This document shows, piece after piece, positions 9,451 to 31,832 of a DNA stretch of 64,000 bases. Below the pieces are notes generated by a model that saw only the letters and a list, made by a program, of their open reading frames with translations, had not been told where the DNA came from and did no database searches. The translations under genes were made by a program, and so were the position numbers. The stretch is from contig NC_091675.1 of the NCBI RefSeq assembly GCF_042453785.1, positions 5,530,501 to 5,594,500 on the forward strand. Reading direction: 5' to 3'. Numbering within the stretch: the stretch's first letter is position 1; the number at the start of each line of letters is the position of its first letter. This stretch comes from Malus domestica. Lineage: Eukaryota; Streptophyta; Magnoliopsida; Rosales; Rosaceae.

Positions 9451-11060
9451 CTAGGGCTTAAGCGATAAGAAAGAGCATACGGTTTGCATGATAGTGAGTA
9501 TGAGGAGGATAACAGCGGCAATTGTAGAAGCAGTTTTCCAAGGAGTGTCCAAATAATCGCGCTTGAGAGTCGCTGCCCACTTGTGCCAAGGGCTACTCGT
9601 GCGGTAGTCATTCAGTTGCTTACAGAGAGAGAAATAGGCGTGTGGCCAGCCCATCTTGCTGATGCGGTCGAATAAAGCCACCAGATCTCTGTTGCTGCCC
9701 AGCGTGTTAGATATAATTCCACTCTCGATGGGTATGTTCACGTCCTTTGAAGTCCTGATCATGCACCCCATGAAGAACATGTATTGGGAGACGTAATTTC
9801 CACCAGGAGGGAAATCGCTGTTTTCCTCAAACACCATCAGATTTAGGAGATGAGTTCCCGTCCGATAATCCAAGTACGGAATTTTCAGACTGCCTCTGTC
9901 GAATTTTATCTCGAGTCCAAAGCTTGTCGGAATTAATTTCTCGAACCTAACCCCGGCCTCGTGCAATGCCGTCACACTCGGCGGGATTAATTCGACAGTA
10001 ATATTAAGATCTCCATCTGATATTGGTGATGATATAATCTCACTGGGAGAGTAAAACGACCATCGTACAAGGGCAGCCAAATGATCCTTCGTATCTTTGT
10101 CCAAAAAAAGGTAACCGTCTGTTGTAGTTGCCGGAATACGATTACCAATATTATTATTGTCAACCAAATAAGCCTTGAAGAAGTCGTGTGCAAGACGTTC
10201 AAGGTTCACTTCTTTTTCATCCGGTGGAGGGTGAGGGAGGACGAGTTTTCTGTATAGCTTGTCTAGAACGAACCAGGGAAGTTGATTTTCGATCAACAAG
10301 ATGTCTCGACAAACGTCTACCAGTATCCTCGTCCGATGGAATATAGGATCAGCAACCTTGGTACTTCTGAATTTCGGAAAGCGAGACCGAAGCATCAGCT
10401 CCAACAGAAAAGCTCCATCTACCACCATCATTAATGCAAAATCGTCGTTACTTAGTTCGACGGACTCGGAATAATAAGTCCTGGCTTTTTCCACCCATTT
10501 GCCTGCCCATTTGCCCGCTAGTTCTTCGAGGACTTCTACGAACATGAATCCGGTCGGGGACGTGGACGTCGACATGTACCGTTCAGTAAAGGATAATGCA
10601 TAATACAACTTTATGCTTGCAGACCTTAAGGATTTGTAATGATACGGTCCGATTGATACTACTCGAGGTCTGTAGGATTCCTCGTTGCCTCTGCAAAATC
10701 TCTCCGGGACTCTGTAAATTAAACGATGGTCTCTCTCTGGGAACATATGACTACTGCCCAGGTCTTTATTAAAGTTTTTGTATAACACGTCACGGTAACT
10801 TGCACTCTAAAATCACATATATACAATAAACTTTATTAATATTAAGTCTTTATCAACAGAATTTTGATGTGTTTAATGAAATATAACAGAAATCCGATGT
10901 GTTAAATGCGTGTGTAATATGTATATACATGCATTGATTGAGTACGTACGTGTGAGACTCCTAGACCTAGATAAGATCATAGTAGGCCTACCTCATCTTG
11001 TGGTTCTGGCTGACTAGATGATGGCCTGCCCTCCAGCTCCGAAGATGTATCTGTATCCAT
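9451..11060 (-). CDS. DUF247 (UPF0481) protein, copy 1
   Basis: A two-exon gene: exon 1 11060-10992 (MDTDTSSELEGRPSSSQP...), intron 10991-10807 with a GT donor and TTTTAG acceptor, exon 2 10806-9451. The frame is continuous and gives 474 residues, about the usual length. Family hallmarks visible in order are a YRVPERF start motif, YRPRVVSIGPYHY, DDFALMMVVDGAFLLELM, DILLIENQLPWFVLDKLY, and a C-terminal hydrophobic anchor (TASTIAAVILLILTIMQTVCSF). Plant DUF247 proteins are probably membrane-tethered and mostly of unknown function; some grass members sit at self-incompatibility loci. Exon 1 was chosen because it supplies an ATG and a phase-0 splice; translation could also begin within exon 2. 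It lies downstream of TGS1b in the same orientation. Confidence 0.88.
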
Positions 11061-12824: not shown

Positions 12825-12845
12825 TCATCTCCTGGCCATGTCACT
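12825..12845 (-). other. TGS1: Displaced 3' tip of TGS1b last exon with original stop codon
   Basis: Read on the minus strand, AGTGA (target-site duplication, 12845-12841) continues CATGGCCAGGAGATGA. Joined at the duplication, this completes SDMARR and a stop (12827-12825). It is separated from the rest of TGS1b by the retrotransposon at 12846-21935. Confidence 0.85.
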
Positions 12846-14640
12846 TGGTAGTAATTTATAACGTACCACAAAGTAGCACACAATAATCCTATTAATTTTC
12901 CTTATTCACACTAAGATTTGTCAATTGTAGCATATGAAAATAAGGGTCTTTCCCGCAGAAGATTGTTTTATCCAAATACTTAAAATGTCACAAAAACGGA
13001 TGGCTGTCTCCACTGATCAGCCACCAAACAATAATTATTAGACTAACTTATACTTATCCAAATGCAACGAAATTTTATACACATAAACTAGACACACCAA
13101 GCTATGCTCACACAAATTTTTGGGATTTTTGGAGTTGATTTGCTATTTAAATTAAATCGTACAAAAACAGTACAGAAACCAATCTTAAATAATACCAATA
13201 GATTTTAATTCACAAATTAAGAAAATGAGTTAGGGGACATGCTTTCCACCACCAAATAATCATGCAAACATGTTATGTTTCATTCAAATTCCTTTTATTT
13301 CCGGATGAAGATGCTCAAGTTGGCTCACTGTTAGAACTCAACCTATTACTCTTTCTTACGTAGTATGTTAAGAGAATGGCGTTTTCAACTTAACTTAGTT
13401 CCTAGCATGCAATCTAGAATGGTGTGTTCATAGATTTAACAAGTAGAAATCATTAAGAATAAAAAGAGTTTGAGTCATCACAAGGCATCGTAAGTACTGG
13501 TGTTGTCTTACTTATCCTAGAAATCGTTTCACATGTTAACCACAATTAACAAGTGCTACTCTAGAACATATGTAGGTCCTCATTCAACAAGGGCAGGCAG
13601 ACATATATTCATAGCATTAAAATCCTAGATATGCTCACTATGTATGCATCCATAGAAACACATAAAGAATTTATCAATGAGATAAGTAGTGAAACAATTT
13701 TCATCATTTCATAAAAGTCATTCAAACAAAATATCACAACAAATTTACGATCATATTCGGGGCTTCAAAACAGCCCCTAACTACTGAAAATTAGTTACAC
13801 ATTATTCTCAAATTAAACCAAAAGTAAAACATGAGTTTCGGAAGATTAAACCAAGAAAATAGAGTGAAGCCTCTTCTTTTCTCCTTCTGCTGCCGTGCTA
13901 CGTTTTTGTCTCTGTGCTTGCCCTTTGCTGCTTCTGTCGCCTGTCCCTTCTTTCTCTGCACCTCGCCTCTGACCTCCCTCCGTTTCTCCCCGCGTCTATT
14001 TCCCTTCTAGTCAGTCTGTCTCTCCCTGCTCTCCCCGTGTCTCTTTCTTATGCTCTGCGCGTTGCGTCAGTATCCCTGCCTAGTCTCTCCCTTCCCGTTT
14101 ATTCTTCTTTCTCTAAGCCCCCCAAATCCTGTCCGCCTCTCTCCCCCTCGGTTTCTTCTCGTCTCCCCCCTCTCCCCGTGTCTTTTTATTCATGCGAGCT
14201 GCCTTTTTTTCTTTTTTTATTTCCCTCTGTCAGTCCCACGTGCCTATATCCTTTCTTTCTGCGCCTGATTCTTGCTCTCTGCCTTCCTCCAGTTTTCTGC
14301 CTTGCGTTTTTTTTTATCTTTCTTTAATCCTCCATCATTCCCTTGTTTATTCCTCCATCATTCTTTTTTTTTATTCTATCTTCTCACTGCTCTTTTGCTT
14401 TCACGTTTTCTGCCTTCTGTTTTCTTTTCTTTCTGCCATCCCCGTCAGTCTCTCCACTTCCTACAACCATTTAAATTCACAATTAGTGCTCCACTTGCTC
14501 CACTTTAATGAAAACAATGCTAAAACAAAAATAATTGTATATTAACACAAGGTAAGTTAAAATGCCATAATTTTAACACAAAAACATCACAAAGACTTTA
14601 GAAATGGATGGTATAAATGCATGAAATATATGAATTATCA
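12846..14640 (-). repeat. 3' LTR of the gypsy-type element
   Basis: 1795 bp, nearly identical to the right copy. The inner edge at 14641 abuts a purine tract on the minus strand (gtttgggggtatt), the plus-strand priming site. Confidence 0.92.
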
Positions 14641-15302
14641 AATACCCCCAAACTTACATTTTTGCTAGTCCTCGAGCAAAACAAAGAAAACATGAAAAAG
14701 TAATAACATAAAAAAAAAATTAGTTTTCCCCTATGTGACCCTCATAGAATTTTATTCAAGAAAACAAATCATCAAGAACCATAGCTAGCATCAAGGAACT
14801 AACCCAAGTTCATCTTCCTTATTCAAATATTAGCAGTAATCTTTGAATCATCCTTGAAGTGTAGTGTGTGAGATAGCCATGCTAATTCAATTTCAAAATT
14901 TTTATATTTTTAAAATCATCATATGCAAACTAGCAACCTTCTCACGGGATATACACTCAATCACACATGTGTTTAGTTTAAATGGGTTTCGCTCAAAGAA
15001 TCAAATGTGAAATTTCTACCATAAGCTTGCATAAAGATCTCATCTCCACAATCGTAATTGCAAAACTTAAATCAAGAGGACTTTTATTGGATGTAATGAG
15101 GTTTAGGGAGAGGGTTATTGAAATGAAAGAATAGGTAAACACAAGTTCCAAGCTACATTGCAAGCAATTCTTTTGTTTAGATTTATAAGAACTTAAGCTC
15201 TCCAGCAATTCTTCTAGCACCTCCAACCACACCCTTAAACTGAAAAATGAACAACTTTTTTATTTCATTTGTATACAATCTTTCTTTTTCTTTTTTTTTT
15301 TC

Positions 15303-15333
<31 letters not shown>

Positions 15334-17330
15334 TTAAATACAAACATGAAATACCCCCACACTTATTCTTTTGCCAAACACCTTCAAAGTACTTCACAAA
15401 CATTTCTCATAAGACATTCTCACATTGCTCACTAGCTTGCTTGGAAAGGGTAAGGAAAAAAAAATTTCAGGCATAAGGGTAGACATATCTGGTGATAAGA
15501 AATAAAAGGCTCAACATACACGGCTCAAATTGGCAATCTAATGATATCATTTTTCTTTGGGAAACATGGTTATTTGGGCCATAGTGGTAAACCTAATGCC
15601 TCTATCATTTCCAAGTTCATGCAATCAATGACAAACATTTCGAAAGATCGTTACGTAAGTTCTAGAGATGTATCTCACATAAGTTCATCACACATGAAAG
15701 AATAGGAGTGTATGAAAAATGCACACACTTTCAATCGGCTCAAAAACTCACATAGGATGTATATGGTCACTAAATTCACATATGAAGCTTTAAGTCATGC
15801 TTTAGTTTCACATAAAAAAGGCTATGTGCATTTGGTTTTTCAAAGATGATCAAACATGTACAAAACTAACAAGAGAATTAGGAATTTCACAAAACACATG
15901 TTAACTAAGTTCTTGATGATCATGGTTCAAATTTGATCTAATTATATCATTGGGTCGGGAAACTAACAAAAATCTAATTCAAAACAATAAGGGAAACAAG
16001 ACAATATTTTTGGATTTTTAAATTATTTATTTATTTATTTATTTTAAAGAAAACAAAAAACAACAACACAGAAACAAATGAAACCAGTTCGTAGTCGAAG
16101 GTACAAAAAATTTCAAGTTGGTCATTTTTTTATACTCTTTACCCCCAAACTTAAACCGGACATTGTCCCCAATGTCAGAAAACACTATAATGCAAATAAA
16201 AATAAAATAAATAAATAATAAGAAACAAAATAAAGCAATTGGACTGAAAACTTCCCTAGTTTGCAGTAAAACCAAGCGATGACCCCCCAAGCTAAAATTC
16301 TGCAATCAACTTCAAGGGTGGAAATAACCAAAAGTTCCTGCAAAGAAAAGAAATAATTCAGTTAAGTAACGCAAGAAAATGTAAAAAAAAACAAACGAAA
16401 AATTGAAAATCACGATAAAAGACAATGAATAGAACTTATAAGTGATCATTGGTCGTGCTTGTTGACTTTCCACAGCTTTCCTCTTGAACGGGGTGACACT
16501 TAGCTTTTTACTGGCAAGTGATGATTTGATGATATTGTACGGCGAAGCTTTGCTCTTTGGTGATGTTGTTGAAGCTCTTTGAGTTCTTTAACTCAGATTC
16601 CTTCTGCTCTCGAGTTGATTGTGCAGGCTCAATTCCTTATTTGTTCTCCAAGCAGATGTGGCAGCTTCTCTAGTTCTTCATCTCAGACTCCTTCCGCTGG
16701 GATGATTGTGCAAGCTGCATTCTTCTCTGCTTGTTTCTTCTGCACGTTGTCTCCACATGCTGCTGGTATCATTTTCGCTTGCCTTATCTGTTCTTCAGGT
16801 AGATGTGGCAGCTTCTTTGGAAGTACATCAGCAGTGGAAGACGAGTACTCGAGAGCAATTTCTCCATGTCCTGCAGGTTAGAACAAAGACAAGGAAAAGG
16901 ACATGGAGAATGCATGATATGAGATACTCTTGCTTTCAACCTTTATGATATGAAATACTTTTGCTTTGAATGGGTTGTTCGCAGGAGTATCCCAAGGAAT
17001 GAGGAACACAGAAAAACTTAGGAGGATTCTTTGGGAATGCATTCTCGGAGATGAAGAAATGCTGAAAGGGTGTGCATTTGCTGTGGAAGGCGAAGGTAAA
17101 TACTTATAGGACTTTTCTTCACAACCAGAACTATTCTCTCACTCATTGTCGGCAGCCGATGGATGGATGAATAGTACAAATTACGCGCTTTCTGACAAAG
17201 CTGCCCGTAATTTCCGCAAAGCTGCAAGTTGCATGTGACGAGTGACGACACGTCTGGACAAATTGATCTTTTGAAATCCGGGGTTCGGCTCGTGGTTTCT
17301 GAGCAAGCCCAGCCTTTAAGAAATGAAACG
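14641..17330. other. Internal non-coding region of the LTR element (3' side)
   Basis: No polymerase sequence is found. It contains poly-T and TTTA-rich tracts (15284-15335, 16020-16045) and several copies of the PPT-like word ccccc(a)aactt at about 14645, 15354 and 16142. The imperfectly repeated cagatgtggcagcttct occurs at about 16653 and 16800, inside an open frame (16579-16881) that I do not trust. Confidence 0.5.
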
Positions 17331-17412
17331 CCTCTTTTGAGAAAAGAATCCGGCTTTTGAGAAAGGAAACTCCTCTTTTGAGAAAAGAATCAGGCTTTTG
17401 AGAACGGAGCCC
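17331..17412. repeat. Two 41-bp tandem repeats upstream of the antisense ORF
   Basis: The unit starts cctcttttgagaaaagaatc at 17331 and again at 17372, with a few substitutions. The word cctctttt/cgcctcttt recurs at 17445-17465 before the TATA-like box. Tandem blocks of this kind often act as promoter elements, which is untested here. Confidence 0.65.
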
Positions 17413-17476
17413 CGACTCTTCGATTTGCGAGATGACGCCTCTTTTATTTCTGAGGAGCGCCTCTTTGATTTCTTCT

Positions 17477-17597
17477 TTTTATAGAGGCGTTAATTTTGTT
17501 CCACAACACACTTGAGCTCCCTCCTGTAAACACTCCCTCTTGCACTCCCAAAATCTTAATCAGTCCGACTCTCTTCTTTCTTCACCACCTCTGAAAA
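17477..17597 (+). promoter_or_regulatory. Putative promoter and leader of the antisense ORF
   Basis: ttttataga at 17477-17485, followed by about 110 bases rich in C and T without an upstream ATG, then aaaaATGtct at 17598. Immediately upstream are two 41-bp tandem repeats (listed separately). Promoter activity is inferred from layout only. Confidence 0.4.
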
Positions 17598-18221
17598 ATG
17601 TCTGGCCCTTCCGATCGTCGTTTTGACTTGAACATTGGTGAAGAGGCAGCTCCGCCTTCACCAGACAACATATGGCGCCCATCCTTCATATCCCCAACTG
17701 GTCCCCTCACCGTTGGGGATTCGGTGATGAAAAATGACATGACCGCTGCGGTGGTGGCCCGGAACCTTGTCACCCCAAGAGATAACAGACTGCTCGCTAG
17801 ACGGTCTGATGAATTGGCGGTTAAGGAGTCTCTGGCTCTTAGCGTGCAGTGTGCGGGTTCTGTGTCCAACATGGCCCAACGCTTATTTGCTCGAACCCGT
17901 CACGTTGAATCGTTGGTGGCTGAAATACAGAGTCTCAAAGAGGAAATTAGAGGACTCAAGCATGAAAATAAACAATTGCACAAGCTTGCACACAATTATG
18001 CCACAAACATGAAGAGGAAAATTGACCAGCTGCAGGAAAATGATGGTCAGATTTTACTTGATCACCGGAGGTTTGTGGGTTTGTTCCAACCGCATCTGCC
18101 TTCGTCTTCTGGGGCGGCACCGCGTAGTGAAGCTTCAGCTGATCAACCTCCGATACCTCCTCCTTCCGTGGCCCCGCCGACTGCTGAAGCTCCGCCGACT
18201 ACTCCTAAGCAGCCTATGTGA
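17598..18221 (+). CDS. Antisense coiled-coil ORF inside the LTR element
   Basis: A 207-residue ORF on the strand opposite to gag, located between gag and the 3' LTR. It begins MSGPSDRRFDLNIGEEAAPP. Residues about 100-145 (ARTRHVESLVAEIQSLKEEI, then GLKHENKQLHKLAHNY and MKRKIDQLQEN) form a predicted coiled coil, and the last 35 residues are Pro/Ala/Ser rich. A TATA-like box (ttttataga, 17477-17485) and a C/T-rich leader precede the ATG at a normal plant promoter distance. I do not recognise a known domain. Extra ORFs, some antisense, are known from Tat/Ogre-like plant retrotransposons, and this may be one. A DLN motif near the N-terminus resembles EAR repression motifs, which is speculative. 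The frame is uninterrupted, which fits the youth of the insertion. Confidence 0.6.
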   Translation: MSGPSDRRFDLNIGEEAAPPSPDNIWRPSFISPTGPLTVGDSVMKNDMTAAVVARNLVTPRDNRLLARRSDELAVKESLALSVQCAGSVSNMAQRLFARTRHVESLVAEIQSLKEEIRGLKHENKQLHKLAHNYATNMKRKIDQLQENDGQILLDHRRFVGLFQPHLPSSSGAAPRSEASADQPPIPPPSVAPPTAEAPPTTPKQPM

Positions 18222-18485
18222 AGACTCCCTCTTGTATTTATCTGCTTAATGTTCCTTTCGTTTTCATGAATGTACAAGTACTTTGCAAGAAGTTGTGGTA
18301 GAGATTGCAACATCATTACCTGCATAAAGGAACAAAAGTAGGACTTAAACACACGAACCAGAAAACAAGAGAAAAACAGAACAAGAACATTTAAAATTAT
18401 TCAAAATAAAGATAAAAGATAGAAAGCTTGGGTTGCCTCCCAAGAAGCGCTTTAGTTACTGTCTAGAGCTAGACGAGACTTCCAT

Positions 18486-19886
18486 TCAAACTCCCCTAGG
18501 TCTCATGGCATGGAATTGATCTTTGAGTGGAAGGTGATACTTGAAATGATTCGGCAATGGTTTAAATTCAAGAGTGGGTGCCTGAATCATCAAAATCAGA
18601 AACATGTTAGTATAAATTAAAATTAAAATTGGAGAAGATGGCTTACTTTCTTTTTTCGACACAAACTCAATGACAAACACCACATCTTTGAACATTTCCG
18701 GGACTTCGAACTTGGCCAGGTTTACTATGATGGTTGTGGCTTGTCCCGTGTCATCAAACTCAACTGCTTTGGGCTTGATTGTCTCATGCACAGCCTCTTG
18801 GATGTATTCTTGATATGCTTCAACCACCTCATTCTCTTGAATCCTTCTTCTTGGTGTACAAGGTTCTTTGAACACTTCAACACAATCTGGAACTTGATTT
18901 GGTGTGCCAAGAATTGGGATATCACTTTGCACCTTTGGAATGGCTTCCAGAATTTCTTTTTCACTCTCATCTTTCATGGGAATTAAAAACCTGCGAGGAA
19001 AAGGAATGGGGACACATGAGTTAAATGAATTTTGAATTTCTTTACATACCGTATTAGAATCTTTTTTGTTCAATTCAACTGCTTTAGGAGAGTTTTCAAT
19101 TTCTGTTGAAGCTTCATCTTGCTCAAGATTTTTGGTTTGTAACTCCCCTTGTTGCATCCTTGGCTGCTCAAAAACTTCTTTTCCACTCCTTAAAGTCATA
19201 GCATTTAACTGCTCCGCATTTGGATTCACCACGGTTTGGCTAGGCAACCTTCCTGGTTGGTGTTGTTGCCCCATCAAACTTGCTAACTGACTCATTTGGC
19301 GCTCAAGGTTTTCAATTGCTTTGTCTGTTTTCTGTTGATGAGATTGAGTAGAGTTAGCTAAAGAAGCAATTAAATCCTCAAGAGACTTACTTGGAGCTTG
19401 TTGTTGTTGAGGCTGAAATGGTTCATATGGCCACTGATAGAACTCTTCCGATGGCGGCAATTGTTCTTCTTTTTGTGAACCCTGCGTCAAAGAAATTAAT
19501 CCTTCAAGAATTTCATTATAATTCACGGGCATACTTTGATTTGATTGGAATTGTTGTGGGGGATGTTGTGGTGGCTGCATAGGTCTTGAATAGAACTCGT
19601 CTTGCTGCCAATATCCACCTTGTTGAAATTGTTGAGGTTCATCCCACATATAATCTGAATTACCTCTCCAATCTAAATTGCAAGCGTTGGAAAACATGTT
19701 GCCCCTTGATTGGTTATGGCCTTGATATCCCCAAACATCTTCATTTGCAGAAAATTGAGGACTTTGATATCCTTGCCCATAGGGCACATCAAATGTAGAG
19801 GCACTTTGCATTGTGGTCCTTTCGGCATATTGTGACAATTGAGAAGTAAGATTTGCCAATTGAGCTTGAATGCTAGCAAAATCCAT
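18486..19886 (-). CDS. Gag-type polyprotein remnant of the LTR element
   Basis: 466 codons from MDFASIQAQLANLTSQLSQY. A Gln-rich low-complexity half is followed by LERQMSQLASLMGQQ, NAEQLNAMTLRSGKEV and a PFPRRFL segment, all typical of the C-terminal part of plant gypsy gag and the gag-protease linker. It ends shortly after APTLEFKPLPNHFKYHL, which resembles the linker just before reverse transcriptase, where the frame stops. The central gag capsid domain and all enzymes are absent. A short in-frame leader (MQTRRSKSIDIAPYNPEHEQ..., about 19978-19890) precedes it and is closed by TAA three bases before this ATG. The two may be remnants of one ORF1 from which the capsid was deleted. Confidence 0.8.
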   Translation of the reverse strand: MDFASIQAQLANLTSQLSQYAERTTMQSASTFDVPYGQGYQSPQFSANEDVWGYQGHNQSRGNMFSNACNLDWRGNSDYMWDEPQQFQQGGYWQQDEFYSRPMQPPQHPPQQFQSNQSMPVNYNEILEGLISLTQGSQKEEQLPPSEEFYQWPYEPFQPQQQQAPSKSLEDLIASLANSTQSHQQKTDKAIENLERQMSQLASLMGQQHQPGRLPSQTVVNPNAEQLNAMTLRSGKEVFEQPRMQQGELQTKNLEQDEASTEIENSPKAVELNKKDSNTVCKEIQNSFNSCVPIPFPRRFLIPMKDESEKEILEAIPKVQSDIPILGTPNQVPDCVEVFKEPCTPRRRIQENEVVEAYQEYIQEAVHETIKPKAVEFDDTGQATTIIVNLAKFEVPEMFKDVVFVIEFVSKKESKPSSPILILIYTNMFLILMIQAPTLEFKPLPNHFKYHLPLKDQFHAMRPRGV

Positions 19887-20114
19887 GTCTTACTTCTCTA
19901 GTACCTTTCGAAGTATTTGTTCATGCTCAGGATTGTAGGGAGCTATATCAATGCTCTTGGACCTTCGCGTCTGCATATACTACAAAAAGTACCTGAAATA
20001 AACCCAAAACCAAAAACACTAAATAGACAAGAAATAGAAAATAATAAAAATAAATAACACTAAAAATAAAAATAAAAATAATAAAAATAAAATATAAGCA
20101 ATCAGAAATAACAA

Positions 20115-20134
20115 TCCCCGGCGACACGGCGCCA
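20115..20134 (-). other. Primer-binding site (Asp-tRNA type)
   Basis: The minus-strand sequence TGGCGCCGTGTCGCCGGGGA begins a few bases inside the right LTR. It resembles the complement of a tRNA-Asp 3' end, the usual primer of Athila/Tat-like plant elements, but carries two extra bases in the middle. Confidence 0.7.
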
Positions 20135-21892
20135 AAAATTTGGTAGTAATTTATAACGTACCACAAAGTAGTACACAATAATCCTATTAATTTTCCTTAT
20201 TCACACTAAGATTTGTCAATTGTAGCATATGAAAATAAGGGTCTTTCCCGCAGAAGATTGTTTTATCCAAATACTTAAAATGTCACAAAAACGGATGGCT
20301 GTCTCCACTGATCAGCCACCAAACAATAATTATTAGACTAACTTATACTTATCCAAATGCAACGAAATTTTATACACATAAACTAGACACACCAAGCTAT
20401 GCTCACACAAATTTTTGGGATTTTTGGAGTTGATTTGCTATTTAAATTAAATCGTACAAAAACAGTACAGAAACCAATCTTAAATAATACCAATAGATTT
20501 TAATTCACAAATTAAGAAAATGAGTTAGGGGACATGCTTTCCACCACCAAATAATCATGCAAACATGTTATGTTTCATTCAAATTCCTTTTATTTCCGGA
20601 TGAAGATGCTCAAGTTGGCTCACTGTTAGAACTCAACCTATTACTCTTTCTTACGTAGTATGTTAAGAGAATGGCGTTTTCAACTTAACTTAGTTCCTAG
20701 CATGCAATCTAGAATGGTGTGTTCATAGATTTAACAAGTAGAAATCATTAAGAATAAAAAGAGTTTGAGTCATCACAAGGCATCGTAAGTACTGGTGTTG
20801 TCTTACTTATCCTAGAAATCGTTTCACATGTTAACCACAATTAACAAGTGCTACTCTAGAACATATGTAGGTCCTCATTCAACAAGGGCAGGCAGACATA
20901 TATTCATAGCATTAAAATCCTAGATATGCTCACTATGTATGCATCCATAGAAACACATAAAGAATTTATCAATGAGATAAGTAGTGAAACAATTTTCATC
21001 ATTTCATAAAAGTCATTCAAACAAAATATCACAACAAATTTACGATCATATTCGGGGCTTCAAAACAGCCCCTAACTACTGAAAATTAGTTACACATTAT
21101 TCTCAAATTAAACCAAAAGTAAAACATGAGTTTCGGAAGATTAAACCAAGAAAATAGAGTGAAGCCTCTTCTTTTCTCCTTCTGCTGCCGTGCTACGTTT
21201 TTGTCTCTGTGCTTGCCCTTTGCTGCTTCTGTCGCCTGTCCCTTCTTTCTCTGCACCTCGCCTCTGACCTCCCTCCGTTTCTCCCCGCGTCTATTTCCCT
21301 TCTAGTCAGTCTGTCTCTCCCTGCTCTCCCCGTGTCTCTTTCTTATGCTCTGCGCGTTGCGTCAGTATCCCTGCCTAGTCTCTCCCTTCCCGTTTATTCT
21401 TCTTTCTCTAAGCCCCCCAAATCCTGTCCGCCTCTCTCCCCCTCGGTTTCTTCTCGTCTCCCCCCTCTCCCCGTGTCTTTTTATTCATGCGAGCTGCCTT
21501 TTTTTCTTTTTTTATTTCCCTCTGTCAGTCCCACGTGCCTATATCCTTTCTTTCTGCGCCTGATTCTTGCTCTCTGCCTTCCTCCAGTTTTCTGCCTTGC
21601 GTTTTTTTTTATCTTTCTTTAATCCTCCATCATTCCCTTGTTTATTCCTCCATCATTCTTTTTTTTTATTCTATCTTCTCACTGCTCTTTTGCTTTCACG
21701 TTTTCTGCCTTCTGTTTTCTTTTCTTTCTGCCATCCCCGTCAGTCTCTCCACTTCCTACAACCATTTAAATTCACAATTAGTGCTCCACTTGCTCCACTT
21801 TAATGAAAACAATGCTAAAACAAAAATAATTGTATATTAACACAAGGTAAGTTAAAATGCCATAATTTTAACACAAAAACATCACAAAGACT

Positions 21893-25752
<3,860 letters not shown>

Positions 25753-25806
25753 GGCCGCTCAACTGCTTCAAATTAATCGCCACCTCGATTTTTAGCAACG
25801 CCGAAA
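25753..25806. promoter_or_regulatory. TGS1b proximal promoter, cut by copia insertion
   Basis: Only 54 bases of the original divergent promoter remain next to the TGS1b start before the copia element. The rest is at 31838-32240 beside THO5. The last five bases (CGAAA, 25802-25806) are the copia target-site duplication. Confidence 0.6.
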
Positions 25807-26084
25807 TGTCAACAATGCAAAAGCTTAGGAACTAAGCAAACTAGGGAGAGAAAGAAGAGAAGGAAAGGTTGCGAAGATACCATAGGAACTAAGCAAACGA
25901 GAGAGAGAAAGAAGAGAGGGAAAGGTCGTTCGAACTGAATATTCTCTTTCTATTCAACTTGTATAAAATAATTACAACTATTGATATTTATACATTAGTG
26001 AGACACCTCTTTACTAATGCACTACCAATAACACATAGACACTTGTCATAATCCTATGCACTCATAATCTTATCAACTCTATCA
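25807..26084 (-). repeat. 3' LTR of copia element, with PBS-containing duplication
   Basis: 278 bp. Its outer end contains aggaactaagcaaac... twice, separated by gcgaagataccat, which is the sequence lying immediately inside the other LTR. The LTR therefore carries a short LTR-PBS-LTR rearrangement. Confidence 0.85.
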
Positions 26085-26089
26085 TCCCC

Positions 26090-29000
26090 CCGCAAGCTCA
26101 TGCGACAAACTGCCAAGCATGAGGTTGGAGCAATTCCGAGTAAACCGACGTGAACACAAGCTTTTAGTAAACATGTCTGCATACTGATATGTAGAGGTAA
26201 CAAATTGCAATCACAATGAAGAACTGGGACATTCGAACACTTCGCATGCAAATCGTGAAGAAGTTGTTGTATCCAGATAACCTCAGCAGTGGTTGTAGCC
26301 ATTGCCCGATATTCAGCATCAATGGAAGACCTACTATGTGTGTGTTGTTTTTTAGAACTCCAAGAGATGGGACTATCACCCAGAAAAATGACAAACCCTA
26401 TAGTTGAACGGCCATCATTGGGATCCTCTGCCCAATCAACATCTGTGTATGCTTTTAATTGAGAAGAACCTGATGTAAAACATAATCCCAAATGCATAGT
26501 ACCTTGGAGATATCGCACAATACGTTTCGCAGCAGCAAAATGAGTTTCTAAGGGTGAATGCATAAACTGACACACTTGATTAACTAAGAAAAAAATTTCT
26601 GGTCTCGTAAATGTAAGATACTGTAAGGCCCCAACAATACTTTTGTAAGTGCTGGGATCAGAAACAAGGTCACTACCATGATTCATAAGCTTTTGATTAG
26701 GATTACAAGGTGTAAGACAAGGTTTACAGTCAAACATGTGCATCTTTTGGAGCAATTCTTTAACATACTTGGCTTGGTGAACAATGAGACCTTGATCTTG
26801 ATACTCAATTTGTAAACCAAGAAAAAAAAATGCAAGAGACTCAAGTCTTTCATTTCAAACTCTTTGGTTAATTGAGAAATAATACTTTGAACCTTCACAT
26901 CATCACTGCCAGTTAGGATTATATCGTCAACATATAGTAGCAGTTCAATGACTAAAGAACCATCACACTTGACAAAAAGATAAGGATCTGCATATGAGGA
27001 CTTGAACCTTAACTTCAGTAAAAAAACCTGCAAAACCTTTCATTCCAAGCTCTGGGAACCTGTTTAAGACCATACAAAGATCACTCCAATTTGCACACAT
27101 AATCTAAACAACTCGAATCCATAAACCTTTGAGGTTGAGACATATACATTTCTTCCTCAAGAAAATGATGCAAGAAAACATTCTTGACATCTAGTTGTTT
27201 AAGCTTCCAGTTATGAGATACACCTAAGGCCAGAACCAATCTAAATGTGGTTGGTTTAACCACATGACTAAAAGTTTCATAGTAATCGAGACTAGCCTCT
27301 TATGAGTACCTCTTGGCTATAAGCCGAGCTTTGTACCTAGCCACTGAACTATCCGGAATTTTCTTAATCTTGTAAATCCATTTGCAACCAACAAGGTTTT
27401 TGTCAGGTGGTAAAGGAACAAGCTTCCAAGTTTGTTAGTGAACTAGAGCATCCATTTCTTCTTTCATGAGCCACTGAGTAAACTTGACTGCAGTAGAAAA
27501 AGATTGAGGTTCCATGAGTGCAGACTCCTTATATATTTAAACAGAGAACACCTTCTTTTTAACAATTCCAGACTTAGACCTGGTTTGCATTAGATGTGTT
27601 CTGTGAAGTAATACACACTGGTTGCAGATCATTAACTTTAGACACTATAGTATTTGGATGAACTTCGAAATATACAGTAGGTAAGATCTCTGAAGAAGAA
27701 CCAACACTTGTGGATGAAGGAACAAGATCACTAGAATGATTGTGTGGAAAAGATGTAGATTGAGTAACATGCTGAGTTTGAGATGTAAAAGTAGTGGAAT
27801 GTGGTGAACCAAGAAAAGGAAAAGTTTTTGGAACACTAGTGGTATGAATGAATGTATTAGGATGCACATGTAGAGAAACAGAATGACCAGACATATTTCT
27901 GGAAATGTAAGACAAGTTATCAAATAATGTATGAAATCGGGATTCATAAAAAACTACATGTCTATACACCAACAGCTTATGATTTTTGAGAGAAAAACGT
28001 ATATATACTTTGTATTGTGCATCATACCCCAGAAAGATACATTCAGTAGTCTTCGGGTCAAGTTTATTGGTTATGTAGAGTTTTAGAGAAAGATAACACA
28101 AACAACCAAATGTTCTCAAGTGTGCAAAGCTAAGGTGGGGAATGATGTAACATTTCAAAGGGAGACTTCATATGTAGGACATGTGTATGCATCTTGTTTA
28201 TTAAAAAAATAGTAGTAGCACATGCATGAAACCAGAACTTTGAAGGTAAAGAGGCTTGTTGTAAAAGGGTGATAGCGGTTTCTACAACATGTCTATTTTT
28301 TCTCTCAGCCAACCCGTTTTGTTATGGGGTATAAAGACATGATTTTTTATGAACAATGCCTTTGGTAAGGAGAAATTGTTTAAACCGAGTACTAATATAT
28401 TCCCCACCACCATCACTTTGCAGTATTTTCACATGAGCAGCAAAGGAATTTGAGACAAAAGCAAGAAAGTTGACAAAAACATCGAACACTGCAGCTTTAT
28501 TATTTAATGGAAAAATCCAAGTATACCTTGTACATTCATCTATAAATAAGACATAGTACATGTAACCTTCTATAGACATACTAGGTGAGGTACCCCAAAC
28601 ATTAGTGTGAATCACTTCAAAAGAAGTACTAGACTTTGAAGCAATTATAGGAAAATGTAATTTTGTAAACTTGCCTTGCAAACAAGCTTTACATGTACGA
28701 GGAGGATAATTACAAGGAAAAGAGATATGAGATTTACTAAGTGATGCAGTAACTATTGACTGTGCAGGATGTCCTAACTTGCAATGCCACAATGCAGAAG
28801 TAACCTTTTGACCTACATATGCAACTGGAGAAGATAATGGGAAATAGACCTCGGTTGATTAAGTATGGGAAAAGGATAGACAACATTCTTACTCAGTCTT
28901 TGGAATAGCATTCTCCTGTATAAAGAGAGAAACATCATTAATTACACACTGACACTTATTATCTTTGCGCAACTGATTAATGGGTAGCAAGTGTTGAGAC

Positions 29001-30713
29001 AATTTTGGAACATGCAACACATAATTCAACTTAAACTCATGTGACTTAGTGGAAAGAGAAGACGAACCAATGTGTTTGATAACTAAACCTTAACCACTAG
29101 CACTGGTCATTGATCATTTGACGGATAAGCAAGTTGTCATGTGTAAATTTGATAAGTCTGAAGTCATATGATTGGTTGCCCCAGAATCAAGCAGCCATAA
29201 ATCTTGCTGAAGTACTGAGACAGTTTGTGCTTGTATAGCAAGAAGAGTATATGACTTATTCATATAAGATTGATGCATCTAAGACATGGCAAAATGTTGA
29301 AATTGTGAATTTTAATACCACTGAACCATGCCTTGCGTAGATCCAAATTGATTCCACACAGGAGCTTGACCATATTGTCCATGAGGCATGAGACCAGACA
29401 TAGGTGTAGAAAAAACTGGAGAAGAATGTCCTGGAAATCCTAAAGAATTCTTGTTCCTGTCAAAGCACGTAGCAGCAACATGACCAATTTTGTGACATAT
29501 TTTGACACCCGTGTTGAAAATAGTTCAATGCAGAATGGCCTTTGCGATCACAAATTTAACATATCTAATTTGGATTATAAGGTTGAGATAATGACTTGTG
29601 TACCATTATGCTGAGAAGTATTGAATACATCATAAACCGGAGACTGAGAAAGACCTCATTGAGGATAAAACTGAGTATTAAACCCATTATGTTGGCCTCC
29701 AGAATTATTGCCACAAAACTTCTTCCCTTTTCCTTTGCCTTTGTAATTGCTACCCATAAAGTTGTTGTATGAACCAGAACCAAGTTGAGTGGCAAAAGCC
29801 ATGAGGACATTAGTCATATATAATATAGGTAATTGGTGAAAACCTTGAGGCACCTGTTGAAAACCTGGGAGTGACATAGATGATAATGGCATAAACAACA
29901 ATGAAGTATTAGGAGGACCAATAAAGCCTTGAGGCATTGGTGAAACATAATTTGTTCATGAGGAACCACCATGATCAAAACTAGATCCAGAAGCTTGAGT
30001 GAACATGGTAGACATTAAAGAAATTTGTTTAGTAGTTTCATCCAGAGTAGTTTCTTCTGCCTTTAATTGAGATCGCAATTCTTTGAGTGAAACAAGATTC
30101 TCCCTTCCACATATGACTGCTTTAATTGTATAATACTCACTTGGTAAGCCTCGCAAAGCAACAATTACAATATCCTCATCAGAAATTGTTACACCAGCAA
30201 CAACTAATTGATCTCTGGACTCCTTAATCTTCTGAAGATATGGATCAACAGATTCAGGGTCTTTCTTAATGTTCTGTAGATCAATCTTGAGTTGAACAAT
30301 ACTTGTTCGAGTAACACTAGAAAACTGTTATCTAAGATTCATCCACATTTCTTTGGAACTCTTACAGCCAATAATGCACGACAAAGCAGAAGGAGCAAAT
30401 GTAGCAGAAATCAGAGTCATTAAAGCCTTGTCATGAATCTTCCATACTTTGTACACATCCGAGATAGGGTGATTGTTATCAACTGTTTCTTCTCAGAATC
30501 AGAGTGCTCAAACTTATCAGGACATGGAACATAACCATTAACAAAACCAACAATTCCATTTCCTTCCAATAACAAATCCATTTGAAAATTCCATGTTACA
30601 TAGTTGGAGTAATCAAGTTTCACCGTGACAGTATTCCTAACACTCGGAGTTAATGACGAAATAGGAAACTGTGTAAAAGCTAATTGAACAGAAGTCACCA
30701 TAGTGTGCAACAA
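26090..30713 (-). pseudogene. Copia gag-pol polyprotein, broken
   Basis: Reading leftward: a gag N-terminus at 30713-30420 (VKLDYSNYVTWNFQMDLLLEG), further gag at 30156-29565, and the pre-integrase zinc-type motif and integrase at 28792-28130. The integrase includes WHCKLGHPA, SDGGGEY and, after an in-frame stop near 28323, QNGLAERKNRHVVE. Reverse transcriptase is at 27263-26683 with LLLYVDDIIL (about 26945-26915). RNase H is at about 26590-26270 (TDVDWAEDPNDGRST, then SISW-type SSKKQ and DAEYRA). At least five stops or frameshifts interrupt the order, so no complete polyprotein is possible. The integrase-before-RT order defines Ty1/copia. Confidence 0.88.
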
Positions 30714-31170
30714 TTTGTATGTAATACTTCAACAACCTTAAGACAATTTTAATACGCAAGAACAACACACAAACTCAATGGAATACACCACCACCAACAA
30801 CAACAAGCTAGGAATTGCATAAATCAACAATCTTGTGAATACGAAACAAGAAACCCTAAAATCCTAGGGTTACAGATTACCAGGAAATCGGAAAAATCCA
30901 GCAATTCAACACGCAGATCTAAAAGAATCGAAAGAATCAACAGAACCTGATGGACAACGACGACCAAGAATCCAACAAATCAACCGACTGAAAAACCAAT
31001 CAACAAAGCACCGACGATGCAGTGCGATCACCTGATACCAAAACGCAAACGAAGAAGATGAAAACGGATGATCGGAGATGATACCGCAGACCAACCACTA
31101 CCGGAGAAAAGTAAAGGAAGCACAAAGGATTGTCAACCGGAGGTGTGAGCCACTTCCGGCGAAGATACCA

Positions 31171-31832
31171 TGTCAACCATGTAAAAGCTTAAGAACTAAG
31201 CAAACTAGAGAGAGAAAGAAAATAGGGAAAAGTTGTTAGAACTGAATATTCTCTTTCTATTCAACTTGTATAAAATAATTACAACTATTGATATTTTGAC
31301 AAAAAAAAAAATACAACTACTGATATTTATACATTAGTGAGACACCTCTTTACTAATGCATTACCAATAACACAGGGCGTGTTTGGCATGCTGGATAACA
31401 CATCGGATAGTACTATTTAATACTATCCGGTGTTTGGTGCCATTCCGTATTAAATTTGCACTGGATTATTTATGATGTCCGGCCTATTTTATACAACATA
31501 TGCCGGATAACGTATACACTCCAAATTGTCGGTATTAATTAGTCATGTCGCTGAAAACAAAATCAAGCTGACTCTTTTTCCATCTCTCTTACTAGTTTTA
31601 AATTGTGAAACGCAGTGCCATAAATGTTTTTCAATCTCCTTTTGAGGAAGTAAATGAACATGATAATCTTTGATGAATTGAGTTTTAATCCGGTATTGCG
31701 GCAAACGCCTAATTAAATAGTTAGTATTATCCGATAATAAATTATCCTATCTGACTGAAATAGTCAGTATAGTCCAAACTGCCAAATGAGACCGACCCTT
31801 GTTATAATCCTATGCACTCATAATCTCTATCA
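31171..31832 (-). repeat. 5' LTR of copia element, split by nested insertion
   Basis: It matches the left LTR at 31171-31374 and 31799-31832. The interior 31375-31798 is foreign. A small duplication with an A-run (31297-31312) separates two copies of caact(a)(t/c)tgatatt. Confidence 0.85.
31375..31798. mobile_element. Tourist/Harbinger-like MITE nested in copia LTR
   Basis: About 424 bp with ends gggcgtgtttggcatgctgg and, as the complement of the right end, gggtcggtctcatttggcag. It has no coding capacity and several short hairpins such as ggatagtactatttaatactatcc. The GGG...TTTGGCA ends recall PIF/Harbinger MITEs. Seven bases of the LTR (tagacac) are missing at the junction, so no clean duplication is seen. 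Confidence 0.5.

Follow-up and report, generated by a model that had tools for sequence, protein, structure and literature searches.

An antisense open reading frame as candidate accessory gene of a young, probably Athila-like LTR retrotransposon of Malus domestica lacking detectable pol domains

A young LTR retrotransposon with two long open reading frames

The window, that is the whole analysed stretch of 64,000 nucleotides of Malus domestica DNA, contained a complete and young LTR retrotransposon of 9,090 bp at 12846-21935, with the minus strand as sense strand. Self-comparison of the 64-kb window revealed a single LTR pair of 1,796 nt with one mismatch and one copy of the element. One T common to both sides was trimmed, yielding LTRs of 1,795 bp each with TG...CA ends: the 5' LTR in element orientation at 20141-21935 and the 3' LTR at 12846-14640, both on the minus strand. 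Perfect 5-bp target site duplications, TCACT, flanked the element at 12841-12845 and 21936-21940. If substitutions accumulate at 1.5e-8 to 7e-9 per site per year, rates that are assumed here, a single difference over 1,795 bp of LTR dates the insertion to about 19,000-40,000 years ago. The sequence TAAGTTTGGGGGTATT (14641-14656, minus strand), adjoining the 3' LTR, was read as the polypurine tract. Motifs of the form AAGT(T/G)TGGGGG, resembling this tract, were present three times on the minus strand (16142-16152, 15354-15364 and 14645-14655), only the last adjoining the LTR; the two inner motifs may act as internal primers for the second strand, or may be relics. A tRNA-Asp-like primer binding site, TGGCGCCGTGTCGCCGGGGATT (20113-20134, minus strand), was located 6 nt from the 5' LTR. 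Two 9-nt blocks of it match the 3' end of tRNA-Asp, with 3 nt between the blocks where the tRNA has 1; the 64-kb window held no tRNA gene for this comparison.

Only two ORFs exceeded 123 codons in the internal region of 5,500 bp: a gag-side ORF on the minus strand (18486-19886; 467 codons stop to stop), encoding a glutamine-rich protein of 466 amino acids, and an intact antisense ORF on the plus strand (17598-18221; 208 codons), encoding 207 amino acids. The antisense ORF occupies part of the 3,845 bp that separate the stop codon of the gag-side ORF from the 3' LTR. Its GC content of 51.8 % stood out from the 31-43 % measured in six other stretches of the element.

Gag-side ORF and missing enzymes

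The element comprised 25 stop-to-stop ORFs of at least 80 codons, 22 of them distinct, with three recurring in both LTRs. Pfam matches to gag, protease, reverse transcriptase, RNase H or integrase were obtained for none of the 22 distinct ORFs; as positive control, an integrase fragment was detected elsewhere in the window at 28325-28792. Besides coiled-coil matches of the antisense ORF, the 22 ORFs gave a single sub-threshold Pfam match (E 0.047), in a plus-strand ORF at 17743-18009 that overlaps the antisense gene, and this match was attributed to chance. The element is thus supported as a non-autonomous LTR retrotransposon in which no pol domain was found, as the sequence-only reading had proposed. 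The gag-side ORF showed no Pfam gag, protease or pol domain and no Pfam match at all up to E = 10, a listing from which the filters remove most matches above 0.1; an NCBIfam match at 0.023 was sub-threshold and was taken as chance. TR-GAG elements are LTR elements with a GAG domain only. Assignment to this class was rejected, the gag-side ORF having no GAG domain recognisable by Pfam up to E = 10. We take the gag-side ORF to be a capsid-protease linker that runs into the start of the reverse transcriptase, as in elements of the OTA clade. A hairpin, TTGGGAGGCAACCCAA (18428-18443, minus strand), was noticed by sequence reading, and TVTKALLGRQPK can be read at its position in one of the three minus-strand frames, which is not the frame of the gag-side ORF. 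Presumably the lost polyprotein of an OTA element once ended here, and this is its remnant. A literature text search for such motifs, as DNA and as peptides, returned only an unrelated paper. Within the gag-side ORF, an intron-like stretch of 65 nt, GTAAG...TATACTAAC...TTCAG (18582-18646, minus strand), has a length that is not a multiple of 3. Its removal by splicing would soon lead to a stop codon, as read from the sequence, and it may be an intron relic or a site of regulated splicing.

Coding signal of the antisense ORF

The antisense ORF extends from ATG to TGA over 624 nt including the stop codon and is not extendable at its 5' end because an in-frame TGA is located two codons before the ATG. 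When the ORF body was dinucleotide-shuffled 2000 times, no shuffle contained an ATG-initiated ORF of at least 207 codons; one of 2000 shuffles of the region 17300-18485 and none of 400 shuffles of the whole internal region did. The period-3 signal amounted to 0.0464 bits, compared with a maximum of 0.0268 bits in 2000 shuffles. In the same test, the gag-side ORF and a DUF247 gene of 445 codons (9451-10788; Pfam E 2.3e-84) each exceeded all 300 of their own shuffles, and for non-coding stretches the observed signal was reached by 248 (18222-18485), 19 (16400-17000) and 274 (14700-15300) of 300 shuffles. Codon usage identified the true frame as the best of six with both references, though weakly. 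Against the DUF247 gene combined with the ORF 23898-25082, which has no Pfam match and whose identity is unproven, the fit was 0.068 bits per codon, with 0.017 for the next frame; against the gag-side ORF even the best frame was negative with -0.102 bits per codon, followed by -0.14. Since length and codon periodicity exceed the shuffles, the antisense ORF is confirmed as genuine beyond chance, and the uninterrupted, coding-like frame of 207 codons described earlier opposite to gag, in the place of the missing pol, was found as such.

Predicted protein

AlphaFold2 on the single sequence modelled one long helix of 103 residues (60-162) with an overall pTM of 0.38. The block means of pLDDT were 93-98 over residues 81-160, and confidence was low in the first 60 residues and in the proline-rich tail; the N-terminus is probably disordered. 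Zipper-like heptads span residues 88-129, with V103, I110, I117 and N124 in a positions and L106, L113, L120 and L127 in d positions. In tests with 1000 permutations each, the heptad score was reached 2, 2 and 0 times for the whole protein and 6, 0 and 0 times for residues 85-165, at window lengths of 28, 35 and 42 residues. Coiled-coil-like helices are common in proteins. From model and permutations, the protein is probably a rod-shaped coiled coil, in agreement with the coiled coil and the lack of a known domain noted before: no Pfam family was matched above its cut-off. The best sub-threshold matches, ZapB in Pfam (0.0013; 19.6 bits against a cut-off of 31.5), the coiled-coil protein TrbJ in NCBIfam (6.7e-05; 22.4 bits against 100.55) and PDB entries (best E 0.36), were judged to be generic helix matches. 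A match to an archaeal SMC-related model of NCBIfam, at 0.037, remained far under the cut-off of that model. Coiled-coil families were matched weakly in large number, never above cut-off, which points in the same direction as the heptads.

A DNA-binding domain was not found in the protein, nor was a clear localisation signal shown. bZIP proteins have a basic region N-x7-R/K, a leucine nine residues further on and then heptads. N91 and R99 fit this pattern, but the first zipper leucine, L106, follows R99 after only six residues and is out of register; in Pfam, PF00170 reached 13.1 bits against a cut-off of 27.6, with the zipper half only. HBZ of HTLV-1 is a zipper protein, and its likeness to the antisense ORF product, which fails the bZIP test, is a functional analogy that claims no relationship. 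The EAR motif DLNxxP requires its proline. The suggestion that a DLN motif recruits co-repressors is not borne out: the only D-L-N comprises residues 10-12, and residue 15 is E instead of P.

The collections searched for homologues contain, by their descriptions, no plant genomes, and little can be concluded from the absence of matches. Among genome contigs, plant-free by the description of the collection, 68 stretches matched a pattern of the antisense ORF, and four did so among viral contigs, none of them confirmed (by tblastn for the genome contigs). In the viral contigs, the gag-side protein had no pattern match, and no match was obtained with a pattern for the LTR or with a degenerate pattern for the ORF; blastn of 17300-18480 against plasmids gave no match. 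Five peptide strings, four of them from the antisense ORF, were without match in a text search of 5.39 million papers.

Upstream region and borders of the cassette

A tandem repeat array with a 41-bp unit (17315-17408, plus strand; 2.3 copies, 90 % matches, sub-period of 20-21 bp) precedes the antisense ORF. It is followed by a weak TATA-like box, TATAGA (17480-17485), as putative core promoter, and by a putative 5' leader with 68 % C+T and no ATG (17510-17597), for which the transcription start is a deduced one. Of 2000 shuffles of the region 17400-17597, which itself lacks the strict TATAWA, 43 contained the motif TATA[ATG]A, a pattern picked after TATAGA had been seen. The ATG-free stretch upstream of the ORF comprises 166 nt, a length equalled in 683 of 2000 shuffles, and 205 of the 5,411 overlapping windows of 88 nt across the internal region were as rich in C+T as the leader. 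The promoter cassette of the sequence-only reading is present in its parts, the 41-bp repeats, the TATA-like box and the ATG-free, C/T-rich leader, but the TATA and leader signals lie near chance in shuffles and windows. The upstream features plausibly fit the promoter of an antisense gene, at a strength close to chance.

An 18-nt direct repeat (16 of 18 identical) brackets the antisense ORF, with one copy in the putative leader (17525-17542) and the other across the stop codon (18217-18234). Four offsets with 16/18 matches were present in 16300-18700, the other three being local repeats at 31, 41 and 147 bp. The bracketing repeat is possibly the footprint of a cassette capture, or else a product of chance. 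A nested element was considered and rejected: three inverted repeat pairs were found, none of which brackets the antisense ORF as terminal inverted repeats.

Comparison with known elements

Antisense ORFs of the aORF-3R (or eORF-3'R) type are reported to be widespread in plant retrotransposons, and their function is unexplained (PMC7264820, PMC11963269). In recently active Retand elements from 617 genome assemblies, antisense ORFs occurred in all clusters, with Transposase_28 (PF04195) in the antisense ORFs of 97 % of the clusters; tandem repeats were present in about half of the clusters, and some were non-autonomous (PMC11963269). In bean, 15 Ty3/gypsy families carry an antisense ORF2, and two of these, pvRetro137 and pvRetro143, have no reverse transcriptase (PMC4093653), as is the case in the apple element. 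Like gene23 of maize Grande and the antisense ORFs of RIRE2, Retand (ORF4) and PvRetro (ORF2), the apple ORF is antisense to the gag side and lies before the 3' LTR, the position and orientation that characterise aORF-3R. With 624 nt it exceeds the 600 bp cut-off of one survey (Vicient 2025), and with 207 codons it stays below the 250 codons of another (Neumann 2019); the bean ORF2 proteins cover 211-939 aa (PMC4093653). It differs from its aORF-3R relatives in that no Transposase_28 or SMC Pfam family was matched above cut-off. Among the extra ORFs of Ty3/gypsy elements, 314 groups have been distinguished, and new sequence types are therefore to be expected (PMC6317226). The antisense ORF may thus be filed as a further member of aORF-3R, in an arrangement that is already known, with a different protein and an apparently Athila-like backbone. 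The link drawn before to antisense ORFs of Tat-like elements is borne out by the published aORF-3R literature (PMC7264820, PMC11963269).

The lineage itself appears to be another one. Assignment to Retand by Transposase_28 was rejected, PF04195 being absent from the filtered Pfam matches up to E = 10. The LTRs of surveyed Retand elements measure 315-1,194 bp (PMC11963269) compared with 1,795 bp here, whereas the Retand region between polyprotein and 3' LTR that holds the antisense ORF, 2,933-6,566 bp (PMC11963269), includes the 3,845 bp found here, with the gag-side stop standing in for the end of pol. In Diaspora and Calypso a tRNA-Asp primer site is found at a distance of 5 bp from the LTR; the tRNA-Asp-like candidate site of the apple element lies at 6 bp, and the LTRs of Athila1-1 (1,539) and Cyclops-1 (1,504) are similar in size (PMC1142308). 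A sense env-like ORF is present in Athila and Calypso and missing in Diaspora (PMC7264820, PMC1142308). No such ORF was found between the gag-side ORF and the 3' LTR, where the longest sense ORF has 123 codons stop to stop and no Pfam match; because Diaspora also has no env, this is compatible with the Athila lineage. From primer site and long LTRs, the element is probably an Athila-like member of the OTA superclade of Ty3/gypsy. Among the titles and abstract openings listed, none reported an antisense ORF in Athila elements, and we do not claim that none has been reported. HODOR, a high-copy repeat of apple (KX869746), is an LTR element of similar size, given as 9.2-kb and 9,716 bp against 9,090 bp here, a comparison of size only (PMC6901071, PMC13334179, PMC8558331, PMC11197308).

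Possible role of the antisense ORF

With a probability of roughly one half, we regard the antisense ORF as a genuine accessory gene of a non-autonomous, Athila-like element, with its own promoter, a self-associating, trans-acting nuclear product and helper-supplied enzymes. Its plus-strand transcription would start from a Pol II promoter of its own, formed by tandem repeats, TATA-like box and pyrimidine leader, in what may be the former space between pol and the 3' LTR. The antisense position may free its expression from the LTR promoter, as for gene23 of Grande, which is transcribed in antisense from a promoter upstream of the gene and has a nuclear product (PMC7264820, PMC11963269), and by analogy for HBZ, the antisense gene of HTLV-1 with a nuclear product (PMC11963269). 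The protein is predicted to self-associate through its coiled coil and would act in trans, most likely in the nucleus, tuning the expression or handling of the family's sense transcript. Capsid and enzymes would be provided by an autonomous relative, to judge from the missing domains. ORF length, period-3 signal, helix, heptads, the weak preference of codon usage for the true frame, and the position and orientation shared with the published aORF-3R of Grande, RIRE2, Retand and the 15 bean families argue for this reading, as do the own promoter and nuclear product of the Grande gene; it is weakened by the lack of a homologue in the plant-free collections, by promoter signals near chance, by the absence of a DNA-binding domain and of a clear localisation signal, by the pTM of the single-sequence model, by the commonness of coiled-coil-like helices and by the negative codon fit to the gag-side ORF. 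Taken as a whole, the interpretation drawn initially from the letters is partly supported.

The main rival, held to be less likely, is that the ORF is a passenger, selected in an autonomous parent and still contained, without present benefit, in a derivative that lost pol. From a single intact copy, selection in the past cannot be told from selection now, and the single LTR mismatch lets the intactness follow from the young insertion. Because an ORF intact in the source is expected to be still intact after so short a time, retention in this copy does not imply the benefit to the element that had been proposed. Against the passenger, the gag-side and antisense ORFs are the only long ones left, at most a hint that repeated rounds of copying preserved the two.

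The accessory-gene reading has a more specific form, in which an Athila-type backbone, of a lineage known for env-like genes in sense orientation, gained by itself a self-associating coiled-coil regulator that is encoded in antisense and has a promoter of its own. A family devoid of enzymes would then have kept this gene since the product regulates or recruits the helper machinery, and the gene would resemble HBZ as an accessory in an element with hardly any other content; this we consider unlikely. It is improbable that the useful product is the antisense RNA, by promoter interference or by double-stranded RNA with the sense transcript, and that the ORF matters little. Such a role has been raised for aORF-3R transcripts in a review (PMC7264820), but an RNA does not need a coding periodicity of this strength. 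No better placed is a captured host gene, in which case a cellular coiled-coil gene would have been taken up, as a fragment or as a retrocopy, together with its promoter. The GC island and the bracketing 18-nt repeat would suit a capture, but coding DNA is often richer in GC than non-coding DNA, the repeat is one long-range pair whose quality was also reached in one of 10 shuffles, and published aORF-3R are described in reviews as having no relatives outside elements (PMC7264820, PMC11963269). A chance open frame, for which the weak codon fit to the two ORFs of the window and the lack of a homologue in plant-free collections could be quoted, is very improbable in view of the length and periodicity shuffles, the helix and the heptads.

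As accessory gene, a 207-residue antisense ORF in a young, pol-less element offers a compact and clean test case for aORF function. Selection on the ORF, considered apart from selection on the enzymes, would reveal whether proteins of this kind are of use to the element, and self-association and localisation should be easy to examine for a protein with so simple a predicted helix.

Further repeats in the window

A perfect 45-bp tandem duplication (two copies, 100 %) was present at 23777-23867, near the ORF 23898-25082. A second, older LTR-like element may be located at 25806-31374, where repeats of 88-94 % identity lie about 5.3 kb apart around the integrase fragment. This fragment also had a sub-threshold GAG-pre-integrase match, a domain typical of Ty1/copia.
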